Source: Mycolicibacterium arabiense
GTDB taxonomy: Bacteria > Actinomycetota > Actinomycetes > Mycobacteriales > Mycobacteriaceae
Direction: 5' to 3'
Assembly: GCF_010731815.2 (NCBI RefSeq)
Contig: NZ_AP022593.1
Coordinates: 3,534,001-3,598,000 of the forward strand
DNA: 64,000 bases
Shown here: piece by piece, positions 1-8,118 of the stretch
Numbering within the stretch: position 1 is the first letter of the stretch
How the letters are laid out: every line of letters begins with the position of its first letter
The notes under the pieces: model-generated
Databases searched by the model: none
What the model was told of the DNA's origin: nothing
What the model saw: the letters and a program-made list of their open reading frames with translations, nothing else
Translations under genes and position numbers: made by a program

Positions 1-1
1 C

Positions 2-826
2 GACCTGTCGACCGGCGATGGGCTGAATCACGTTCTCGCCGCGGCGATTACGTTGCGCGACCCGATTCTGGGCCCGGACGACCAGGATCTGCTCGAGGAC
101 GGCCACGGCACCGCGCTCGACCGCGTGAGCGCCTTCCAGATGGGCTTCATGGCCGGGGCGTCGGAGTGCGCCGCCATCGACTTCGACGAGATCGCGCAAC
201 GGCGCGGCGACCTGCCGATGGAGTTGCCGCTCGACGACTCCGGGGGCGTGCAGACCGGCGAGGTGCCACTCGACGAGGGCACCCTGTCCCTGCTGATGGA
301 CGTGCTCGGCGAGGTGTACCGGCCGGCACAGCCGCCGACGCTGACGTACGAACCCGCTCCGTGTACCGACATTCCGCCCAGCCCTCCCGCGTCGTATTGC
401 CCGACGACGAACAGCATCTGGGTTGACCTCGGCTCGATGCAGCAGCTGGGTTCTCCCGCCGACGAGTCGAATTACGTTCTGCTGCAGGGTGACAACACGG
501 CCCTGTCGGTGCTGACGTCGCGGTACGCACTCGCCGTCCAGCGCGAGAACGGCGACCCGCTGGACACCCCCGTCGCCGCACTGCGGACCGCCTGCCTCAC
601 CGGCGTCGCCCAGGCCGCGATGGCCGGCTCGATCGCCACCCCCGACGGCCGGACCCTGAGCCTGACCGCCGGCGACCTCGACGAAGCGGTCGCCGGGCTG
701 CTCACCAACGGTATTGCGGCGAGCAACGTCGAAAGCCAAACCGTGCCCGCAGGCTTCACCCGCATCGTCGCCTACCGGTCGGGCCTGTCCGGCGACCGCG
801 ACCTCTGCTACGCGCGCTTCAAGTAG
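2..826 (+). CDS. C-terminal part of a predicted secreted neutral zinc metallopeptidase-like protein (5' end outside window)
   Basis: The reading frame is open from the first bases of the window to a TAG at 824-826, so about 274 residues of the C-terminus are present and the start lies upstream. The segment around GHGTALDRVSAFQMGF followed by a Cys resembles the post-catalytic part of actinobacterial neutral zinc metallopeptidase-like proteins (LpqM-type lipoproteins). Paired cysteines (YEPAPCTD, ASYCPTT, RTACLTG, RDLCYARF) fit an exported, disulphide-stabilised protein. The HExxH zinc motif expected in this family would lie in the missing N-terminal part, so enzyme activity cannot be judged. 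The family call is by resemblance only. Confidence 0.5.
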   Translation, partial: DLSTGDGLNHVLAAAITLRDPILGPDDQDLLEDGHGTALDRVSAFQMGFMAGASECAAIDFDEIAQRRGDLPMELPLDDSGGVQTGEVPLDEGTLSLLMDVLGEVYRPAQPPTLTYEPAPCTDIPPSPPASYCPTTNSIWVDLGSMQQLGSPADESNYVLLQGDNTALSVLTSRYALAVQRENGDPLDTPVAALRTACLTGVAQAAMAGSIATPDGRTLSLTAGDLDEAVAGLLTNGIAASNVESQTVPAGFTRIVAYRSGLSGDRDLCYARFK

Positions 827-879
827 CCAGTTCGAACGGCCCTCGGAATTCCGCACGGCCTCGCGGCGTTTCAGGCGTC

Positions 880-1041
880 ATGAGGAAGATGTCCCCGGCC
901 GGCGTATTCGCCACCGTGGTGGCGGCCGCGATCGTCGGCACTGCTGCCCCCGCCGGGGCCGACATCACGAACGACGTCTCGACCATCGGGTCGGTGGCGC
1001 AGGGGCCGACCGTGGACCGTCAAGGCCCGACGATCGGCTGA
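880..1041 (+). CDS. Small secreted peptide precursor (53 aa), first member of the local peptide cluster
   Basis: ATG at 880 opens 53 codons ending in TGA at 1039-1041. The N-terminus has a short basic head (MRKM), an alanine- and valine-rich hydrophobic core and a signal-peptidase-like AGA-D boundary after residue 27. This leaves a mature peptide of about 26 residues containing STIGS and ending GPTIG. The STIG motif recurs as ST(V/I)GN at the C-terminus of the three peptides that follow, so it is probably a diverged relative. It lies 53 bp after the upstream CDS and 38 bp before the first 64-bp dyad. It has no strong Shine-Dalgarno sequence. No function is recognised. Confidence 0.5.
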   Translation: MRKMSPAGVFATVVAAAIVGTAAPAGADITNDVSTIGSVAQGPTVDRQGPTIG

Positions 1042-1079
1042 GGTTTCGGCCAGGCGCTCGTTCTTGAGGTTCGCGTGCC

Positions 1080-1143
1080 TCGCGACGTCTACACCACGGT
1101 CGTGGGGGTGCCCCGCGTCACGACAGTGGGGTAGATCTCGCGA
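1080..1143. repeat. 64-bp imperfect palindrome, copy 1 of 3
   Basis: Arms of about 25 bp begin and end with TCGCGA and carry inverted TCTAC..GTAGA and GTCGTG..CACGAC blocks around a C/G-rich centre (CCCC...GGGG). The same 64-bp element recurs at 1544-1607 and 1985-2048, each time about 140 bp upstream of a small secreted-peptide gene. It could be an operator, a cruciform or RNA hairpin, or a mobile miniature element. Confidence 0.8.
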
Positions 1144-1284
1144 CGCTCACACCGCCCGACCATCGCGAAACTGCCAGCGGTCGATCAATTACCGCCAATG
1201 GAATTAAACCGCTGACCTGCCGGTTTACACCATCAGACCGGCCGGAGACTCACTACCGGCCCACTGCAAGGAAGAGGGATCACC
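1144..1284 (+). promoter_or_regulatory. Conserved leader of peptide cassette 1
   Basis: About 140 bp, conserved nearly base for base in the other two cassettes (1608-1751 and 2049-2192). It contains GATCAATTACCGCC, GGAATTAAACCGC and CCGGTTTACACCATCAG blocks and ends in a purine-rich ribosome binding site, GGAAGAGGG, about 6 nt before the ATG. Conservation of non-coding sequence as strong as the coding part suggests promoter and 5' UTR functions move with the gene. No clear -35/-10 pair could be assigned with confidence. Confidence 0.6.
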
Positions 1285-1452
1285 ATGAAGAAGTCAGCAA
1301 TCACCGCCACCATCGCCGCCGGATTCGCCGCCGCCCTGTTCGGCCTGGCCGCCCCCGCCAACGCGGGCATCGACCACCACTCCTGGCTCAACGACGTCCA
1401 GCAGCAGGCAGTCGTCGGCTCGGCCACCTCGACGGTAGGCAACGGCCGCTAA
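1285..1452 (+). CDS. Small secreted peptide precursor (55 aa), cassette 1
   Basis: ATG at 1285 follows a good ribosome binding site (GGAAGAGGG) and ends in TAA at 1450-1452. MKK plus a hydrophobic core (GFAAALFGLAA) and an ANA-G boundary after residue 27 form a classical signal peptide. The mature product would be about 28 residues with the core WLNDVQQQAVVG and the tail ATSTVGNGR, and no cysteine. The protein is identical to cassette 3 (2193-2360) although the two genes differ at three synonymous positions. No known family is recognised. A signalling, antimicrobial or envelope-binding peptide would fit the architecture, but this is inference. Confidence 0.8.
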   Translation: MKKSAITATIAAGFAAALFGLAAPANAGIDHHSWLNDVQQQAVVGSATSTVGNGR

Positions 1453-1466
1453 CACCCACCCACACC

Positions 1467-1496
1467 AGAGGGGCACCCGGAAACGGGTGCCCCTCT
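1467..1496 (+). terminator. Hairpin terminator of peptide cassette 1
   Basis: A perfect 13-bp stem (AGAGGGGCACCCG / CGGGTGCCCCTCT) closes a GAAA tetraloop and is followed by only two T residues. It lies 14 bp after the stop codon. The same structure follows cassettes 2 and 3, so each cassette looks like an independent transcription unit. Confidence 0.8.
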
Positions 1497-1543
1497 TGGC
1501 GTTTCGGGCGTGGTGCCAGTAGTCGTCTCGGGGCGTTGCACTT

Positions 1544-1607
1544 TCGCGACGTCTACACCACGGTCGTGGAGATACCCCGGGTCACGACGCTGGGGTAGAT
1601 CTCGCGA
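1544..1607. repeat. 64-bp imperfect palindrome, copy 2 of 3
   Basis: Same length and ends (TCGCGA...TCGCGA) as copies 1 and 3. The left arm and the reverse complement of the right arm agree at 20 of 25 positions, and the centre reads ACCCCGGGT. It lies 47 bp after the terminator of cassette 1 and upstream of the cassette 2 leader. Confidence 0.8.
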
Positions 1608-1751
1608 CGCCCGCACCGCCGCCCAACCATCGCGTTCCTGCCACCGGTCGATCAATTACCGCCAGTGGAATTAGACCGCTGACCTGCCGGTTTACATCAT
1701 CAGACCGGCCGGAGATTCACTACCGGCCCACTGCAAGGATGAGGGATCACC

Positions 1752-1925
1752 ATGAAGAAGCTCGGAATCACCAGCGCCATCGCTACCGGATTCGCCGCCG
1801 CACTCTTCGGCTTGGCCGCCCCCGCAAGCGCGGACGGTGGGGTCGACCGCCTCCACTGGCTGAACGAGATTCAGCAGAAGGCAGAAGTGGGTGCCGCCAC
1901 GTCGACCATTGGCAACGGCCGCTGA
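1752..1925 (+). CDS. Small secreted peptide precursor (57 aa), cassette 2
   Basis: ATG at 1752 is preceded by GGATGAGGG at the same spacing as in the other cassettes, and the gene ends in TGA at 1923-1925. The signal peptide (MKKLGIT...GFAAALFGLAA, cleavage after ASA) resembles the paralogues. The mature peptide of about 30 residues keeps HWLNEIQQKAEVG and ATSTIGNGR but has an extra DGG at its N-terminus. Changes against cassettes 1 and 3 are conservative (D/E, V/I, S/A), which suggests selection on the helix-like WLN(D/E)(V/I)QQ core and the GNGR tail. Function unknown. Confidence 0.8.
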   Translation: MKKLGITSAIATGFAAALFGLAAPASADGGVDRLHWLNEIQQKAEVGAATSTIGNGR

Positions 1926-1939
1926 CACCAGACCACACC

Positions 1940-1969
1940 AGAGGGGCGTCCGGAAACGGGCGCCCCTCT
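1940..1969 (+). terminator. Hairpin terminator of peptide cassette 2
   Basis: A 13-bp stem with one G-T wobble (AGAGGGGCGTCCG / CGGGCGCCCCTCT) closes a GAAA loop and is followed by TT. The pairing is kept despite sequence change relative to cassettes 1 and 3, which supports an RNA hairpin. Confidence 0.78.
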
Positions 1970-1984
1970 TGCTGTTCGGAAGTC

Positions 1985-2048
1985 TCGCGACGTCTACACC
2001 ACCGTCGTCGATCTGCCCCGGGTCACGACGCTGGGGTAGATCTCGCGA
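1985..2048. repeat. 64-bp imperfect palindrome, copy 3 of 3
   Basis: Third copy of the TCGCGA-bounded dyad, 15 bp after the terminator of cassette 2. The left arm differs slightly (CCACCGTCGTC) while the right arm matches copy 2. Confidence 0.8.
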
Positions 2049-2192
2049 CGCCCGCACCGCCCCACGACCACCGCGTTCCTGCCACCGGTCGATCAATTAC
2101 CGCCAATGGAATTAAACCGTTGACCTGCCCGTTTACACCATCAGACCGGCCGGAGATTCACCACCGGCCCACTGCAAGGAAGAGGGATCACC

Positions 2193-2360
2193 ATGAAGAA
2201 GTCAGCAATCACCGCCACCATCGCCGCCGGATTCGCCGCCGCCCTGTTCGGCCTGGCCGCCCCCGCCAACGCGGGCATCGACCACCACTCCTGGCTCAAC
2301 GACGTCCAGCAGCAGGCAGTCGTCGGATCGGCCACCTCCACCGTAGGCAACGGCCGCTAA
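2193..2360 (+). CDS. Small secreted peptide precursor (55 aa), cassette 3
   Basis: ATG at 2193 has the GGAAGAGGG ribosome binding site and the gene ends in TAA at 2358-2360. The predicted protein is identical to that of cassette 1. The nucleotide differences within the CDS (GGC/GGA, TCG/TCC, ACG/ACC) are all synonymous. The A-B-A pattern, with outer copies alike and the middle one diverged, suggests recent duplication or gene conversion between the outer cassettes together with purifying selection on the peptide. Function unknown. Confidence 0.8.
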   Translation: MKKSAITATIAAGFAAALFGLAAPANAGIDHHSWLNDVQQQAVVGSATSTVGNGR

Positions 2361-2374
2361 CACCCAGCCACACC

Positions 2375-2404
2375 AGAGGGGCACCCGGAAACGGGTGCCC
2401 CTCT
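2375..2404 (+). terminator. Hairpin terminator of peptide cassette 3
   Basis: Identical stem-loop to that of cassette 1 (13-bp stem, GAAA loop, short T run), 14 bp after the stop codon. It ends 39 bp before the next gene. Confidence 0.8.
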
Positions 2405-2443
2405 TCGCATGTGGACATGAGGTCCGTTGGCTAGGGTCCCTTC

Positions 2444-2929
2444 ATGACTCGTCGACGACGCGATGTACCACCCCCGGGCGTACAGGGCGGCGAGCGCGAA
2501 GTGCTGCTCGGCTTTCTCGACTACCTGCGGGATTCCGTTGCGACCAAGGTCCAAGGTGTGCCCGAGCCCGACGTTCGTAATCCCGGTGTCCCGTCCGGCA
2601 CCAATCTCCTTGGGCTGCTGAATCACTTGATCCATGTCGAGAGGTTCACGTTCCTCGGCGAAGTGGTCGACGATTGGCCGGCCACCTTCCATGCTGCACC
2701 CGACAGCACGGTGGCATCGCTGACCGAGACGTATGCGGATGTCACCGCGCGTGCGAACGCCGCCATCCGAGCATGCGCCGATCTCGGGTCACCCTGCGCC
2801 CGCCCGACCAAGACGGGTGCCCCACCGACGATGCGCTGGGCGCTGACACACATGATTGAAGAAACCGGTCGGCACGCCGGCCACATGGACATCCTGCGGG
2901 AACTGATCGACGGCGTGACCGGTCGCTGA
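2444..2929 (+). CDS. DinB/DUF664-family protein (161 aa)
   Basis: The protein has the four-helix-bundle pattern of DinB/DUF664 proteins. Histidines sit at the usual metal-binding positions: in the first third (LLNHLIHVERFTFLG) and near the C-terminus (THMIEETGRHAGHMDILRE). The GRHAGHxDxLRE signature is typical. Family members bind a divalent metal and some are thiol-dependent (mycothiol or bacillithiol) transferases, but the substrate here is unknown. The ATG at 2444 lacks an obvious ribosome binding site, so translation may be leaderless. A strong hairpin follows the stop. Confidence 0.85.
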   Translation: MTRRRRDVPPPGVQGGEREVLLGFLDYLRDSVATKVQGVPEPDVRNPGVPSGTNLLGLLNHLIHVERFTFLGEVVDDWPATFHAAPDSTVASLTETYADVTARANAAIRACADLGSPCARPTKTGAPPTMRWALTHMIEETGRHAGHMDILRELIDGVTGR

Positions 2930-2945
2930 TCCTGAAACACGAAGA

Positions 2946-2970
2946 CCGCGAACTCGATTCGAGTTCGCGG
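2946..2970 (+). terminator. Hairpin after the DinB-family gene
   Basis: CCGCGAACTCGA and TCGAGTTCGCGG form a 12-bp inverted repeat with almost no spacer, 16 bp after the stop codon. The preceding AAACACGAAG and the left arm recur at 4166-4187, see the hairpin there. Confidence 0.65.
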
Positions 2971-3102
2971 CCAGACCCGCTCGGTGACGGCGACACCCTA
3001 GTGCTTCGTCCCACTCTCACTATATGGCCGAGGTAGGGGCTTGCCGCAAGACCCGGGTCGTCCCGCAGAATCTGCCAACCAACTCACCGGATGGAGGTCG
3101 TC

Positions 3103-3522
3103 GTGACCAAACCCTTCGAAGTGCACGAGTCGGGTGCCTTCCTGCACGGCACCAAGGCCGATCTGTCGATCGGCGATCTGCTCGTCCCCGGACGCCCGTC
3201 GAACTACCAGCCTGGCCGCCTCATGAACAACGTCTACGTGACCCGCACGCTCGACGCCGCTGTGTGGGGCGCGGAGTTCGCCGTAGGGGACGGCCCGTGC
3301 CGCATCTACGTCGTCGAACCGCTGGGCGCGATCGAGGACGACCCGAATGTCACCGACAAGAAGCTCCCCGGCAACCCGACGCAGTCCTTCCGCACCCGGG
3401 AGCCCGTGCGCATCGTCGGCGAGATCACGGACTGGCAGGGGCATTCGGAGGAACAGCTGCAGGCGATGCGGGACGGCCTGGCGGACCTCCGGCGCCGCGG
3501 GCTGGACGTCATCTACGACTGA
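3103..3522 (+). CDS. arr: NAD(+)-rifampin ADP-ribosyltransferase (Arr)
   Basis: Arr transfers ADP-ribose from NAD+ to the C23 hydroxyl of rifamycins and inactivates them in the cytoplasm. Diagnostic blocks are present: VHESGAFLHGTKADL with the conserved His, NNVYVTRTLDAAVWGAE, and EDDPNVTDKKLPGNPTQS with the acidic residue, ending RRGLDVIYD. The length of about 139 aa matches chromosomal mycobacterial Arr. GTG at 3103 is chosen because GGAGG at 3093-3097 lies 5 nt upstream. ATG at 3091 in the same frame is the alternative and would add four residues. It stands alone between two hairpins with one other gene. High confidence by similarity. Confidence 0.95.
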   Translation: MTKPFEVHESGAFLHGTKADLSIGDLLVPGRPSNYQPGRLMNNVYVTRTLDAAVWGAEFAVGDGPCRIYVVEPLGAIEDDPNVTDKKLPGNPTQSFRTREPVRIVGEITDWQGHSEEQLQAMRDGLADLRRRGLDVIYD

Positions 3523-3546
3523 CCCCGTTGCGGGATGATGGCCGGC

Positions 3547-4119
3547 ATGCAGATTCTCTGGCAGCAGGCCCACGTCGAACGGCTGCGGGCCGTACGGGTG
3601 GGCTGGGACGGTGCGGAGGTGGGTGCGCCGTGCTTCGGTCCGGACTGGGAGTCCCAGCCCGACGACGTGCACCTGCTTCGAATCGCCACCACCTACGGGT
3701 CCTGTCCGACCGGCAGCTTTCCCTACCGGCGCCCGCCGGCAGATCACGAGTACTCGTTCTTCGTCGAGGACCTGCCCGACGACACCGTGTTCGAGTTCTC
3801 GGATCGCCACCGGCGCCTGTTGGCCGCGATGAGTTGGGAGCTCTCCGCGCCCTACGGGGACGACGACATCCCCGGTTGCGACCCGAAGCGTCCGTACGGC
3901 GACTTCACGTTCTATCAGCTCGAGATGGCACTGCACCTGGGTCTCATTCCGGCGCAGAAGCCACCGGATCACGACCCGATGACACCGCAGATCGTCGACG
4001 CGATGACGGCGCTGCACGGGCAGATGCAGCCTGCGCTGCAGGTGTTCCTGCAGAACTTCGACATCCCTGCGGGTGGGCTGTTCACCGGTGAGGACTGGGG
4101 CGGGTGGGAGCCCGTCTGA
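3547..4119 (+). CDS. Hypothetical protein (190 aa)
   Basis: The protein begins MQILWQQAHVERLRAVRVGWDG and is acidic and aromatic-rich, with no signal peptide or membrane segment. Notable blocks are APYGDDDIPG, YGDFTFYQLEMALHLGL and a C-terminal FDIPAGGLFTGEDWGG. I do not recognise the family. ATG at 3547 is chosen over in-frame ATGs at 3535 and 3538, but no start has a clear ribosome binding site. It begins 24 bp after arr in the same direction and is followed by a terminator-like hairpin, so it is probably co-transcribed with arr. A role beside rifamycin modification is not shown. Confidence 0.75.
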   Translation: MQILWQQAHVERLRAVRVGWDGAEVGAPCFGPDWESQPDDVHLLRIATTYGSCPTGSFPYRRPPADHEYSFFVEDLPDDTVFEFSDRHRRLLAAMSWELSAPYGDDDIPGCDPKRPYGDFTFYQLEMALHLGLIPAQKPPDHDPMTPQIVDAMTALHGQMQPALQVFLQNFDIPAGGLFTGEDWGGWEPV

Positions 4120-4174
4120 GCGGCAACTGCGCCCGATGTCAGCGACGGATCGTCTCGAGGCCGCCAAACACGAA

Positions 4175-4201
4175 GGCCGCGAACTCGAAGAGTCCGCGGC
4201 C
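4175..4201 (+). terminator. Hairpin after the arr-hypothetical pair
   Basis: GGCCGCG-A-ACTC, a GAA loop and GAGT-C-CGCGGCC form an interrupted 11-bp stem. The flank AAACACGAAG plus the left arm CCGCGAACTCGA duplicates the hairpin at 2935-2957, so similar terminators bracket the arr module. It also separates the plus-strand gene from the convergent tRNA-Leu. Confidence 0.65.
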
Positions 4202-4231
4202 TGCGTTCAGCGATCCGAAGACCGCTCATTG

Positions 4232-4314
4232 TGGGCGAAGGGGGACTTGAACCCCCACGTCCCGAAGGACACTGGCACCTGAAGCCAGCGCGTCTGCCAT
4301 TCCGCCACTCGCCC
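4232..4314 (-). tRNA. leuT: tRNA-Leu (CAG anticodon)
   Basis: On the minus strand the acceptor GGGCGAG pairs with TTCGCCC, the anticodon stem CTGGC/GCCAG holds the loop TTCAGGT with anticodon CAG, and GGGGG-TTCAAGT-CCCCC is the T arm. A long variable arm (class II) fits leucine, as does the length of about 83 nt. CCA is not encoded. The same tRNA lies beside fhaA in M. tuberculosis. Confidence 0.95.
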
Positions 4315-4447
4315 CAACAACCGGGAAAGGCTATCACGCACCCCGGCTGACTCCCCAACCGTGCTGATGGGTCCGGGCGCAAGCCGCTGACCTGGCGTGA
4401 TCTGATTCTCAGAGATCCGATGGTCACGCCGGGGCACCCATGGCCGA

Positions 4448-4453
4448 TACCAT
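4448..4453 (+). promoter_or_regulatory. Candidate -10 hexamer for the fhaA operon
   Basis: TACCAT fits the mycobacterial SigA -10 pattern TANNNT and lies 75 nt upstream of the fhaA start. No convincing -35 is present, so this is a tentative call. Confidence 0.3.
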
Positions 4454-4528
4454 GCGCAGAGGGGTACCGGTCTGCGACACGCGCGGGCCGGCAGAAGCGA
4501 CGACGACGAAGCGAGGTGGAGCGGGGAC

Positions 4529-5998
4529 ATGGGTCTGGTCGACCGCTTCGAGCGCAAACTCGAATCCGGCCTCGGCGACGCGTTCGCCCGGGTGTTCGGC
4601 GGATCGATCGTGCCGCAGGAAGTCGAGTCGATGCTGCAGCGCGAGGCCGACGCCAAGGTGCGTGAGCTGCAAGGCGGACACATTTTGGCACCAAACGACT
4701 ACGTCATTACCCTCAGTGTGCCCGACCATCAGAAGGTGAGTGCCGACCCCGACCTCACGTCGACGAGTTTTGCCCGGCACCTGGAGGGATACATCCATGA
4801 CCAAGGTTGGCAAACGTATGGTGAAGTGGTCGTCAGTTTCGAACCATCGCCGAACCTGCATACCGGCCAGCTTCGCGTCCGTGGAGCGGTCAATCCCGAC
4901 AGCCGACCTGCCCCCTCACCCACACCCATGGGCGCAAGTGCCCCTGCTTCATCACACCGCGCGAACACCGCAGAACCAGGAGTTCCTTCGATGACTGACA
5001 ACCCGAATTACCGCGGCGGCCAGGGACAAGGGCAGCAGCCCGGCGACGAATACTACGACTACGGCCGCCAGGGTGACGATCAGCGCCGCCCCTACCCGCC
5101 TCAGGATCAGGGCGGCTACCCGCCGCCCGCCCAAGGTGCACCCGGCTACCCGCCCCGCCAGGGGGGCTACCCGGACCAGGGCGGCTACCCCGAGCAAGGT
5201 GGATACCAGGACCAGGGCGGCTACCCCGACCAGGGCTACCCGCCCCCCTCATACGACCAGCGTCCCCCCGCGGGCGGCGGCTACGGCCAGCCCCCGGCCG
5301 GTGGCTACGGCGAGGGCTACCCACCTGCCCCCGCCGGCGGCTACGGCGGCCCGCAGGGCGGACAGGGCGGCTACGGCGCGCCCGCCGGTGACTACGACTA
5401 CGGTCGCCCCCCGGCTGCCCCGCCGCGCCACGAGGACTACGGCCGCCCCGAATCGCGGCCCGGCTACCCGGATCAGGGTGGATACCCCGACCAGGGCGGC
5501 TACCCGGATCAAGGTGGATACCCCGACCAGGGCGGCTACGGCGGTGGCTACGGCCGCCAGGAGTACGGCGGCCAGCCCGCCGGCTACGACTACGGCCAGC
5601 AGCCCCAGCAGGGCTACGGCGACCAGGGCTACGGCGCGCCCGCGGCCTACGGCGAGCCTGGTTACGGCCAGCAGGGGTACGGCGGCGCCGGCTACGGCAG
5701 CGGCGCGGCCGGTGCGACGGTCACGCTGCAGCTCGACGACGGCAGCGGCCGCACCTACCAGCTGCGCGAAGGCGCCAACGTGATCGGTCGCGGCCAGGAC
5801 GCCCAGTTCCGCCTCCCCGACACCGGTGTGTCCCGTCGCCACCTCGAGATCCGGTGGGACGGAGCGGTCGCGCTGCTGTCGGACCTGAACTCGACCAACG
5901 GCACCACGGTCAACAACGCCCCCGTCCAGGAATGGCAGCTGGCCGACGGCGACCTGATCCGACTGGGCCACTCCGAGATCATCGTTCGCGTTCACTGA
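4529..5998 (+). CDS. fhaA: FHA domain protein FhaA
   Basis: The 489-residue protein has an N-terminal DUF3662/FhaA_N domain (about 1-120, begins [19 protein letters not shown]). A long low-complexity linker rich in Tyr, Gly, Gln and Pro (about 150-395, many GGYPDQ repeats) follows, then a C-terminal FHA domain (about 400-489) with the phosphothreonine-binding blocks VIGRG, SRRHLEI and LNSTNGT. FHA domains bind phosphothreonine. In mycobacteria FhaA binds the phosphorylated MurJ pseudokinase region and restrains peptidoglycan precursor export. It is the first gene of the fhaA-pknB run. The repeat number in the linker probably varies between strains. Confidence 0.96.
5461..5537 (+). repeat. In-frame 36-bp tandem repeat in the fhaA linker
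   Basis: Two nearly exact copies of a 36-bp unit encode alternating GYPDQG blocks. A related block lies at about 5161-5237. The copies are separated by synonymous changes only (GGCTAC/GGATAC). Confidence 0.75.
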
Positions 5999-6178
5999 GC
6001 ACTCGAGCGGGTGTCGGCCGTGGCGAAGCCGGACGCTTCCCCTTCACGTCGATCGCCGCCCAAGTAATGTGACGTTGCCGAAGCTGGCCGAGCAGACCGC
6101 GTGGGTCGAAGCGGTACCGTCCACGGGTCGGCTCGGTGGTCGCGAGCGACAACGGGACGGTGACGGAGAGGACGTCGG

Positions 6179-6646
6179 ATGCAGGGGCTAGTACTGCAGC
6201 TGACGCGTGTCGGTTTCCTCTTGCTGCTGTGGCTCTTCATCTGGTCGGTGCTGCGCATCCTGCGCACCGACATCTACGCCCCGACGGGCGCCGTCATGGT
6301 CAAGCGCGGTCTGGCCCTGCGCGGCACCCTGCTGCCCAGCCGGCAGGCACGCAACGTCGCCCGGCAGCTCGTCGTGACCGAGGGCGCACTCACGGGCACC
6401 CGGATCACGCTGGGCACCCAGCCGGTGCTGATCGGCCGTGCCGACGACTCGACGCTCGTCCTGACCGACGACTATGCGTCGACACGGCACGCCAGGCTCT
6501 CTCAGCGGGGGTCCGAGTGGTACGTCGAAGACCTAGGATCGACGAACGGTACATACCTCGACAGGGCGAAGGTGACGACGGCGGTAAGGGTTCCGATGGG
6601 CACGCCGGTGCGAGTCGGCAAGACGGTGATTGAGCTGCGCCCGTGA
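6179..6646 (+). CDS. fhaB: Membrane-anchored FHA domain protein FhaB (FipA)
   Basis: The 155-residue protein has an N-terminal transmembrane segment (about 10-29, FLLLLWLFIWSVLRIL) and a C-terminal FHA domain (about 65-155) with the motifs LIGRAD, STRHARL and DLGSTNGTYLD. It binds phosphorylated partners of PknA/PknB at the membrane and is linked to division-site and wall enzymes in mycobacteria. The ATG at 6179 is preceded by GGAGAGG at a suitable distance. The stop overlaps the GTG of pstP (GTGA), showing translational coupling. Confidence 0.96.
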   Translation: MQGLVLQLTRVGFLLLLWLFIWSVLRILRTDIYAPTGAVMVKRGLALRGTLLPSRQARNVARQLVVTEGALTGTRITLGTQPVLIGRADDSTLVLTDDYASTRHARLSQRGSEWYVEDLGSTNGTYLDRAKVTTAVRVPMGTPVRVGKTVIELRP

Positions 6647-8118
6647 CACTCGTCCTCCGCTACGCCGCGCGCAGCGACCGCGGCCTCGTCCGCGCCAACA
6701 ACGAGGACTCCGTCTACGCCGGTGCCCGACTGCTGGCGCTCGCCGACGGCATGGGCGGTCACGCCGCAGGCGAGGTCGCCTCCCAGCTCGTGATCGCCGC
6801 ACTCGCCCACCTCGATGACGACGAGCCCGGCGGGGACCTGCTGAGCAAGCTCAACCAGGCCGTCCACGAGGGCAACTCGGCCATCGCCGCCCACGTCGAC
6901 GCCGATCCCGAACTCGAGGGCATGGGCACCACGCTCACGGCGATCCTGTTCGCGGGCAACAGGCTTGGGCTCTGCCACATCGGCGACTCCAGGGGCTACC
7001 TGCTCCGCGACGGCGAGCTGACCCAGATCACAAAGGACGACACGTTCGTCCAGACGCTCGTCGACGAGGGCCGGATCACTGCCGAGGAGGCGCACAGCCA
7101 CCCGCAGCGCTCGCTGATCATGCGCGCGCTCACCGGCCACGAGGTCGAGCCCACCCTGACCGTCCGCGAGGCCAAGGCCGGCGACCGCTACCTGCTGTGC
7201 TCCGACGGACTGTCCGACCCCGTCAGCCACGAGACCATCGCCGAAGCCTTGGCGCTCGAGGATGTCGCCGCGAGCGCTGACCGGCTCATCGAGTTGGCGC
7301 TGCGCGGCGGTGGCCCCGACAACGTGACCGTGGTCGTCGCGGACGTCGTCGACTACGACTACGGCCAGACCCAGCCAATCCTGGCCGGCGCGGTGTCCGG
7401 CGACGACGACCAGACGGCGCCGCCCAACACGGCGGCCGGACGCGCATCGGCGTTCAACCCGAAGCGCGCGGCACCGACCAAGCGCCCGGCCGTCGAACCC
7501 GAACCCGCCAAGAAGCCCCGTTCGCGCCGCAGGATGATCATCACCGCGGTCCTGCTGGTGCTCGTGGTCGCGGCCGGACTCTTCATCGGCCGCATGATGA
7601 TTCGCAGCAATTACTACGTCGCCGAGCACGACGGCGCGGTGTACATCATGCGCGGGGTGCAGGGCTCGATCCTCGGCATACCGCTGCAGGAGACGTTCCG
7701 CGTCGGTTGCCTCGACGGGCGCAGCGAGCTGCGGATCATGGGCGTCGACGACGACCGCGCCAACTGCCAGCTGCTCGAGGTCGCCGATCTGCGTGAGTCC
7801 GAGCGCGCCCAGGTCACCGCTGGCCTGCCCGCGGGCAGCGTCGACGACGCGATCCGCCAGCTCCGCGATCTCGGCACCACGTCGCTGCTGCCGGTGTGTG
7901 CCCCCCCGGCGCCGAGGACCACGACGCCGCCACCGCCTCCGCCGACCACCTCGTCGGGCACGCCCACGACCACGTCGCCCTCCCGCGGGCCTGCTCCCGG
8001 CCCCGCGCCCGAGACGCCAAGCACCGTCACGACTCCCCCACCCCCGCCCACGCCGAGCGTCACGGCGCTGCCTCCCCCACCGCAGGAGCCGGGCACCACC
8101 TGCCGGGCTGCGTCATGA
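6643..8118 (+). CDS. pstP: PP2C-family Ser/Thr protein phosphatase PstP
   Basis: This membrane phosphatase reverses phosphorylation by PknA/PknB on targets such as CwlM and the kinases themselves. The cytosolic PP2C domain (about 1-235) carries metal-binding motifs LALADGMGGH, GMGTTL, HIGDSRGYL, LCSDGLSD and GGPDNVTVV. A juxtamembrane linker leads to one transmembrane helix (about 297-317, MIITAVLLVLVVAAGLFIG) and an extracytoplasmic part ending in a Pro/Thr-rich tail. GTG at 6643 overlaps the fhaB stop. The stop at 8116-8118 overlaps the rodA ATG (ATGA). Confidence 0.97.
   Translation: MTLVLRYAARSDRGLVRANNEDSVYAGARLLALADGMGGHAAGEVASQLVIAALAHLDDDEPGGDLLSKLNQAVHEGNSAIAAHVDADPELEGMGTTLTAILFAGNRLGLCHIGDSRGYLLRDGELTQITKDDTFVQTLVDEGRITAEEAHSHPQRSLIMRALTGHEVEPTLTVREAKAGDRYLLCSDGLSDPVSHETIAEALALEDVAASADRLIELALRGGGPDNVTVVVADVVDYDYGQTQPILAGAVSGDDDQTAPPNTAAGRASAFNPKRAAPTKRPAVEPEPAKKPRSRRRMIITAVLLVLVVAAGLFIGRMMIRSNYYVAEHDGAVYIMRGVQGSILGIPLQETFRVGCLDGRSELRIMGVDDDRANCQLLEVADLRESERAQVTAGLPAGSVDDAIRQLRDLGTTSLLPVCAPPAPRTTTPPPPPPTTSSGTPTTTSPSRGPAPGPAPETPSTVTTPPPPPTPSVTALPPPPQEPGTTCRAAS

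Follow-up and report, generated by a model that had tools for sequence, protein, structure and literature searches.

Among described systems, the closest to the promoters considered here are those of two mycobacterial extracytoplasmic function (ECF) sigma factors, SigE and SigH. In excerpts of a report on Mycobacterium tuberculosis (PMC4803200), SigH sites consist of GGAA and GTT 19 bp apart, with the optimum GGAAYR-N17-18-GTT, and at the sixth position of the −35 element SigE prefers a pyrimidine, whereas SigH strongly prefers a purine; the consensus sequences of M. smegmatis are similar (excerpt of PMC5430705). There is also precedent for SigE and a response regulator acting on one promoter, namely at sigB and at sigE P2, the latter leaderless (excerpt of PMC10027907), and the wider SigE/regulator network is covered in PMC11173970. 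We analysed a 64,000-nucleotide stretch of Mycolicibacterium arabiense (contig NZ_AP022593.1, positions 3,534,001 to 3,598,000), hereafter the window, in which three tandem cassettes encode small, predicted secreted peptides. Our analysis suggests, with moderate confidence in the explanation as a whole, that the array arose by local amplification of a single member of a regulon of secreted micropeptides in mycobacteria.

A promoter box linked to micropeptide genes

By-eye comparison revealed an upstream block common to most members of the peptide family, in which the direct repeat CTGCCA-N15-CTGCCA is followed by GGAATT and then by GTT, 19-21 nt after GGAA. In the window this box pattern (up to three mismatches) matched three times, compared with 0.00 matches expected in shuffled sequences, which excludes chance. 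A search of the whole M. arabiense genome for CTGCCA-N15-CTGCCA-NN-GGAA, also with up to three mismatches, returned five matches, all of them 5' of family members, and the control returned none; neither the member at C2:3999069 nor those on the second contig have the box upstream.

Across 118 Mycobacterium genomes, 120 box sites were found in 49, and the reversed-pattern control had no site among the matches listed. We read 107 distinct sites (loci L149-L258), the remainder being own-genome sites, identical sites or DNA that was not fetched. At 106 of them a family open reading frame (ORF; profile E ≤ 1e-6) lay within 550 nt downstream, compared with none of the 107 in the reverse-strand control, a proportion that tests the linkage of the box and is not an independent discovery of the family, since the profiles (A1-A3) include members found here. 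At the lone site without such an ORF, the contig ends 133 nt further on. GTT followed GGAA at all 107 sites (19 nt after it in 66, 20 nt in 40 and 21 nt in one), and the search had not required this element because its pattern ended at GGAATTA. In an order-wide sample the box was present in 18 of 298 genomes, all belonging to Mycobacterium (35 of the 298 genomes and 1 of 76 genera), and in none of the 263 sampled genomes of the 75 other genera.

We also examined the best 79 loci found by peptide rather than by box (the named loci), which include loci of M. moriokaense, M. llatzerense, M. rhodesiae, M. peregrinum, M. hodleri and M. lacusdiani and whose hosts are mostly environmental fast growers. 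GGAA-N19-21-GTT occurred within 240 nt upstream in 70 of them, compared with 79 of 2,000 random stretches; the genes' own promoters are part of the figure of 55 of 255 GGAATT motifs that have a GTT after them. Within 90 nt of the stop codon, 59 of the 79 had a GC-rich hairpin with a T-run (4 of 790 random stretches), indicating that most members are monocistronic, which speaks against a role as leader peptides or in translational arrest for a downstream gene.

Sequence conservation at the box extends further. The spacer CTGACC and the post-GTT sequence TCAGAcCGG are strongly conserved, and a CTGA...TCAG dyad is centred on the −10 element (49 genomes), which goes beyond what a plain ECF promoter explains. 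Three type 2 copies (see below) on the 434-kb contig C1 (L007, L008 and L024 of G000) have GGAATTAATG promoters lacking the CTGCCA repeat. GGAA-N20-GTT with 9 nt to the ATG, again lacking the repeat, precedes the type 1 loci L119, L120, L123 and L130. With so short a distance between GTT and ATG, these four genes and gene 4 of the window, which has no CTGCCA repeat either and whose promoter layout is shared by M. lacusdiani locus L281, may be leaderless.

The family is apparently large and undescribed. Beyond the array, the M. arabiense genome contains six clear members, divided equally between the large contig and the 434-kb second contig. A protein search with gene 2 of the array yielded 81 relatives, whose named organisms were all Mycobacterium or Mycolicibacterium, and one with a type 2 member yielded 418, of which 120 were listed. 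The family profile matched 180 of 248 Mycobacterium genomes at E ≤ 0.01, a figure that includes many weak, signal-peptide-only matches. With a single protein as the query, 9 of 61 genomes had a match, and the 24 genomes from other families had none. Tandem family pairs 280-440 bp apart (start to start) were observed in seven genomes (G021, G148, G159, G165, G168, G201 and G228), indicating that local duplication recurs.

No Pfam or NCBIfam model matched the window genes, types 2 and 3 or one type 4 protein above the curated cut-off, in agreement with the preliminary description of this DNA, which had matched the peptides to no known family. A type 2 peptide gave no tblastn match in plasmid and phage collections, where filtering may hide short signal-like queries, and a PDB profile search found no relative of the peptides and none convincing for type 4. 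In titles and abstract openings of the open-licence literature, with subscription literature and preprints outside the scope, nothing describing the peptides or the box was found.

A conserved signal peptide before unrelated cargo

Five types of mature part lie behind the same box and signal peptide: type 1 (HHxWxNDIQQ...GNGR), to which the array belongs; type 2 (HHDWVNDIxPxxxVPxVDTTVHQSR); type 3 (VDNHDExNTTNGFVDxPF); type 4, a domain roughly 55-75 residues long (GPGNAQDTISxLexxGYxVxVNR...VYVDVK); and type 5 (SGSGDARDTTIDSLGYTVGGDKLGTIDVIQRD). The cargo of the box sites was typed by regular expressions, which left 8 sites unclassified, and 15 were assigned to type 4 or a type 4-like class by eye. 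Types 1 and 2 are related (HHxW; 17% ungapped identity, alignable) and types 4 and 5 seem to be (SGxG; 20%), so that there are at least three unrelated cargo groups.

For 83 proteins in which AxA occupies residues 25-27, identity over the first 27 residues was 58-68% between types 1-4, compared with 61-81% within types, whereas the next 26 residues were only 5-17% identical between types; the signal peptides of type 5 were 44-51% identical. Codons at shared residues coincided at a frequency of 0.46-0.55, at the codon-usage expectation of 0.54, indicating that the likeness of the signal peptides is old and has been kept by amino-acid selection rather than produced by recent shuffling. For 11 orthologues of one type 2 peptide, the ratio of nonsynonymous to synonymous substitution rates (dN/dS) was 0.13 in the signal and 0.09 in the mature part; in mixed paralogue sets the corresponding values were 0.19 and 0.49 (type 1, 12 sequences) and 0.17 and 0.41 (type 2, 26 sequences). 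At the syntenic locus of M. lacusdiani, a type 1 cassette is intact with one residue different, a second cassette is partly N, and a unit like gene 2 is left only as tail remnants, indicating that members are kept over speciation times with turnover inside the array. On these comparisons the family is real, consisting of signal-peptide-bearing precursors, most of which share one promoter architecture; it is confined to Mycobacterium in the samples searched and is under purifying selection.

Seven representative mature peptides had a net charge of −1 to −5, contained no Cys and were hydrophilic. The structure model of type 1 was of low confidence (mean predicted local distance difference test score, pLDDT, 57) and was set aside. 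Genome G028 contains several type 4 copies driven by the box (L181-L185), some rearranged or containing N, which represent either local amplification or an assembly problem.

Regulation and possible function

The sixth position of the −35 element was a pyrimidine in 60 of the 70 peptide-found loci with GGAA-N19-21-GTT, that is, in 53 of 54 loci with the CTGCCA repeat and in 7 of 16 without it; the 87% T at this position among the box sites is biased, because GGAATTA was part of the search pattern. Presence of the repeat and the identity of the −35 variant are thus associated. These counts point to a SigE-type factor at the boxed majority and leave room for SigH at the others. The spacing of the repeat is also informative. 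Its two CTGCCA elements are 21 bp, or two helical turns, apart, and the second is separated from GGAA by 2-3 nt in 46 of the 79 named loci and by 13-14 nt in 13. The shifted repeat therefore lies 11 bp, one helical turn, further upstream, as expected of an activator that contacts RNA polymerase from its DNA site.

We propose the following mechanism. An ECF sigma factor of the SigE type would read GGAATT-N17/18-GTT with the help of a DNA-binding activator that occupies the CTGCCA direct repeat immediately 5' of the −35 element. Each gene would be its own transcription unit, giving a short mRNA that ends at the hairpin just past the stop codon, and tandem copies would supply a higher dose of the same peptide. 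The conserved signal peptide would route the precursor through Sec, signal peptidase would cut after AxA, and the product, a short acidic peptide or, for type 4, the domain of some 55-75 residues, would be released to the periplasm, cell wall or medium. The peptides are probably made under cell-envelope stress, and in the last and weakest step the released peptide would take part in the envelope stress response as an effector, either protective or signalling. For acidic, hydrophilic, Cys-free peptides, a binding or buffering role fits better than membrane attack. An activator-assisted, SigE-type regulon of monocistronic secreted peptides is the best reading of the regulatory half, and we regard that half as highly probable; for a role as envelope effectors the chances appear about even. 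Taken from promoter to stress effector, the proposal seems to us somewhat more probable than improbable.

Several observations weigh against this proposal. Of the 79 named loci, nine have no strict GGAA-N19-21-GTT upstream, 16 no recognisable CTGCCA repeat and 20 no terminator by the criterion used, and GCT replaces GTT in two of the three copies on contig C1. The promoters of SigE and SigH overlap, and position 6 is G (GGAATG, SigH-like) in 9 of the 16 repeat-less loci, compared with 1 of 54 with the repeat, so that the family need not share one sigma factor. With respect to the activator, the −35 element of 5 of the 13 shifted boxes matches only in relaxed form, most of the 13 come from two related subfamilies and perhaps reflect one or two events, and no regulator gene was linked to the box at the sites read. 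The envelope role is argued from promoter type and from nothing else. Finally, the 22 type 4 members gave weak Pfam matches to LytR_C and PepSY_2 (best E 0.0057, reported with no cut-offs shown), and a fold search with a type 4 model (pLDDT 63) returned no significant match.

The same −35 counts bear on the first alternative, in which SigH or another ECF factor reading GGAAY-GTT, responsive to thiol-oxidative stress or heat, replaces SigE and the peptides serve in redox or protein-damage defence. Its consensus overlaps that of SigE, and the repeat-less loci with GGAATG carry the purine that SigH prefers; nevertheless, the pyrimidine in 53 of 54 repeat-bearing loci falls where SigH strongly prefers a purine (excerpt of PMC4803200), and we consider this alternative unlikely, if still to be reckoned with. 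We attach a similarly tentative standing to a dedicated export cassette, in which one activator-plus-ECF promoter and one signal peptide, both kept by selection, would carry interchangeable, evolutionarily unrelated micropeptides out of the cell as a stress regulon. Here the signal peptide would itself be recognised, whether by an export or processing factor dedicated to it or through its own activity once cleaved, and new cargo would join the regulon by coming to lie behind it.

Peptide signalling, in which mature peptides or cleaved signal peptides would be pheromones sensed by kin, is improbable. The peptides are small, secreted and multi-copy with conserved C-termini (GNGR, VDTTVHQSR), and the signal peptide is conserved across different cargo, all of which would suit a pheromone. 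Against this, none of the four adjacent ORFs scanned with Pfam and NCBIfam encodes a receptor, histidine kinase or modification enzyme (the rest of the genome was not searched), a genome holds up to 14 profile matches, weak ones included, with several unrelated cargos under one box, and one orthologue group is nearly invariant between species. A constant leader with a variable core is the logic of ribosomally synthesized and post-translationally modified peptides (RiPPs) and of conotoxins. The N-terminus could accordingly be a leader for a shared trans-acting enzyme encoded elsewhere, with the mature types as cores; yet it looks like a canonical signal peptide with AxA, the mature parts within one type are conserved, and no modification or transport gene was found among the four ORFs scanned (trans-acting genes were not searched), making this option quite improbable. 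Bacteriocin-like or toxic peptides are the least probable of all, since secretion, tandem copies and the location of some genes on the 434-kb second contig are outweighed by acidic, hydrophilic, Cys-free representatives that are neither cationic nor Cys-rich, by purifying selection across species and by the lack of a second ORF in the cassettes before the terminator (unlinked immunity genes were not searched). The likeness to pheromone, toxin or antimicrobial loci drawn in the preliminary description thus found no support, given the acidic, Cys-free and hydrophilic peptides, the conserved orthologue group and the lack of an adjacent receptor gene.

The tandem array and its relation to known systems

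The features of the array are given in Table 1.

Table 1. Coordinates of the array features in the window
Feature	Position	Strand	Description
Candidate ECF promoter of gene 4	845..870	+	GGAATT, GTT 19 nt after GGAA, 9 nt to ATG
Gene 4, diverged relative	880..1041	+	53-aa precursor
Palindrome copy 1	1080..1143		Half-site matches in genome
Promoter 1	1171..1225	+	CTGCCA 1171, CCGCCA 1192, GGAATT 1200, GTT 1223-1225
Peptide gene 1 (type 1)	1285..1452	+	55-aa precursor, signal peptide and predicted 28-aa mature peptide GIDHHSWLNDVQQQAVVGSATSTVGNGR
Intrinsic terminator 1	1467..1498	+	GAAA-loop hairpin (1467-1496)
Palindrome copy 2	1544..1607		Half-site matches in genome
Promoter 2	1638..1692	+	CTGCCA 1638, CCGCCA 1659, GGAATT 1667, GTT 1690-1692
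Peptide gene 2 (type 1 variant)	1752..1925	+	57 aa
Intrinsic terminator 2	1940..1970	+	GAAA-loop hairpin with G-T wobble
Palindrome copy 3	1985..2048		Half-site matches in genome
Promoter 3	2079..2133	+	CTGCCA 2079, CCGCCA 2100, GGAATT 2108, GTT 2131-2133
Peptide gene 3	2193..2360	+	55 aa
Intrinsic terminator 3	2375..2406	+	GAAA-loop hairpin (2375-2404)

Reading of the sequence and its ORFs agrees with the preliminary description that three tandem cassettes are present: all are intact, each with an ORF, a leader and a GAAA-loop terminator, and one peptide ORF is followed by the terminator with no second ORF between. All three precursors have signal peptides of the form MKK...AxA, and the motifs WLN(D/E)(V/I)QQ and ATST(V/I)GNGR are indeed common to the mature peptides. 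The claim of an identical mature product holds for genes 1 and 3, which encode the same 55-aa precursor with three synonymous differences, but not for gene 2, whose protein is 71% identical to that of gene 1. Likewise, the hairpins described as perfect exist in all three cassettes, with a wobble in the second, and the conserved leader of about 140 bp is really a promoter plus a short 5' untranslated region. Two families of direct repeats run through the array, one of 300 nt, whose other copies are 95% and 74% identical to copy 1, and one of 99 nt. The cleavage site that defines the mature peptide of gene 1 is a prediction from its sequence.

The diverged fourth gene noted before the cassettes is backed by conservation, its mature part being identical at the syntenic M. 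lacusdiani locus. It shares 44% identity with an own-genome paralogue at C2:1934166 (E 0.006), and relatives were found in 11 of 118 genomes at E ≤ 0.01 with weak scores. The suggestion that each gene has its own regulation and terminator was borne out as to the promoter of every gene and the terminators of genes 1-3; gene 4 has no terminator by the criterion used. In sum, small secreted peptides in single-gene units remain from the earlier interpretation, whereas the palindrome as regulation and the pheromone, toxin or antimicrobial analogy do not.

The palindrome preceding each cassette is an imperfect 64-bp inverted repeat with arms TCGCGAnnTCTACnCCAnnGTCGTG. Its half-site matched 31 times in the M. 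arabiense genome at up to three mismatches (14 pairs, one single and two three-mismatch matches that look like chance), compared with none for the reversed-pattern control, and 27 times at up to one mismatch. Other copies lie on contig C2 around 579144, 1712393, 2595962, 4089023, 4980047 and 5355540, among others. Elsewhere it is rare: at one mismatch, 7 of 98 Mycobacterium genomes had any match, M. arabiense included, and it is also present in the syntenic M. lacusdiani array. These dispersed copies rule out the palindrome as the cassettes' regulatory site, the part assigned to it earlier, and we do not count it in the peptide unit; it resembles a repetitive extragenic palindrome or a miniature inverted-repeat transposable element (no transposase search was made) and, lying before each cassette, may have promoted growth or contraction of the array.

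Two other candidates were rejected. The 'leader' is not a known structured RNA, because Rfam gave only sub-threshold matches in window positions 1-8000 besides a tRNA at 4232-4314, and only three tRNAs reached gathering level in the whole window. A TraT-like match (E 0.011) was below the Pfam cut-off. The four adjacent ORFs scanned comprise a mycothiol-S-transferase gene (Pfam MST; 2414-2930), an arr (rifampin ADP-ribosyltransferase) homologue (3091-3522; above the NCBIfam NF033144 cut-off) and two ORFs with no match. The mycothiol-S-transferase gene lies between the array and arr and has no counterpart at the syntenic position of M. lacusdiani.

Genes for micropeptides are difficult to detect, and knowledge of the mycobacterial envelope response comes mostly from larger proteins. 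Here one DNA box is enough to predict more than 100 exported micropeptides among the sampled genomes of a single genus, and the sites read had no target of another kind; the box thereby defines a testable regulon and offers a handle in the search for further members. It also poses a puzzle, in that the signal peptide is conserved across unrelated cargo.

In comparison with SigE and SigH promoters, the box has the same GGAA and GTT 19 bp apart (excerpts of PMC4803200 and PMC5430705) and, in nearly all CTGCCA-repeat loci, the pyrimidine of SigE promoters at position 6 of the −35 element. It differs from them in adding CTGCCA-N15-CTGCCA, the conserved CTGACC spacer and a TCAGACCGG start region, and, at the sites read, in being followed by no genes other than those of secreted micropeptides. 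The dual SigE and MprA promoters sigE P2 and sigB likewise combine an ECF sigma factor with a response regulator, and sigE P2 is leaderless, as gene 4 may be (excerpt of PMC10027907). The MprA motif given for Corynebacterium glutamicum, TKTTAAGAAM (excerpt of PMC12113857), is unlike CTGCCA.

Bacteriocin or RiPP precursors and conotoxin-like superfamilies also combine one conserved N-terminal region with several mature parts. Unlike bacteriocin and RiPP precursors, the peptides described here have a Sec-type AxA signal peptide instead of a double-glycine leader, are not accompanied by linked enzymes in the window, and have mature parts that are conserved within types. Some UniRef names of type 4 cargo read 'PASTA domain-containing'; however, no Pfam PASTA match at E ≤ 1 was found in the 22 type 4 members, and Foldseek matches to PASTA-bearing structures were not significant. 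An ECF regulon is a known kind of system, and what appears to be new here is its exclusive micropeptide content at the sites read, together with a shared signal peptide before unrelated cargo.

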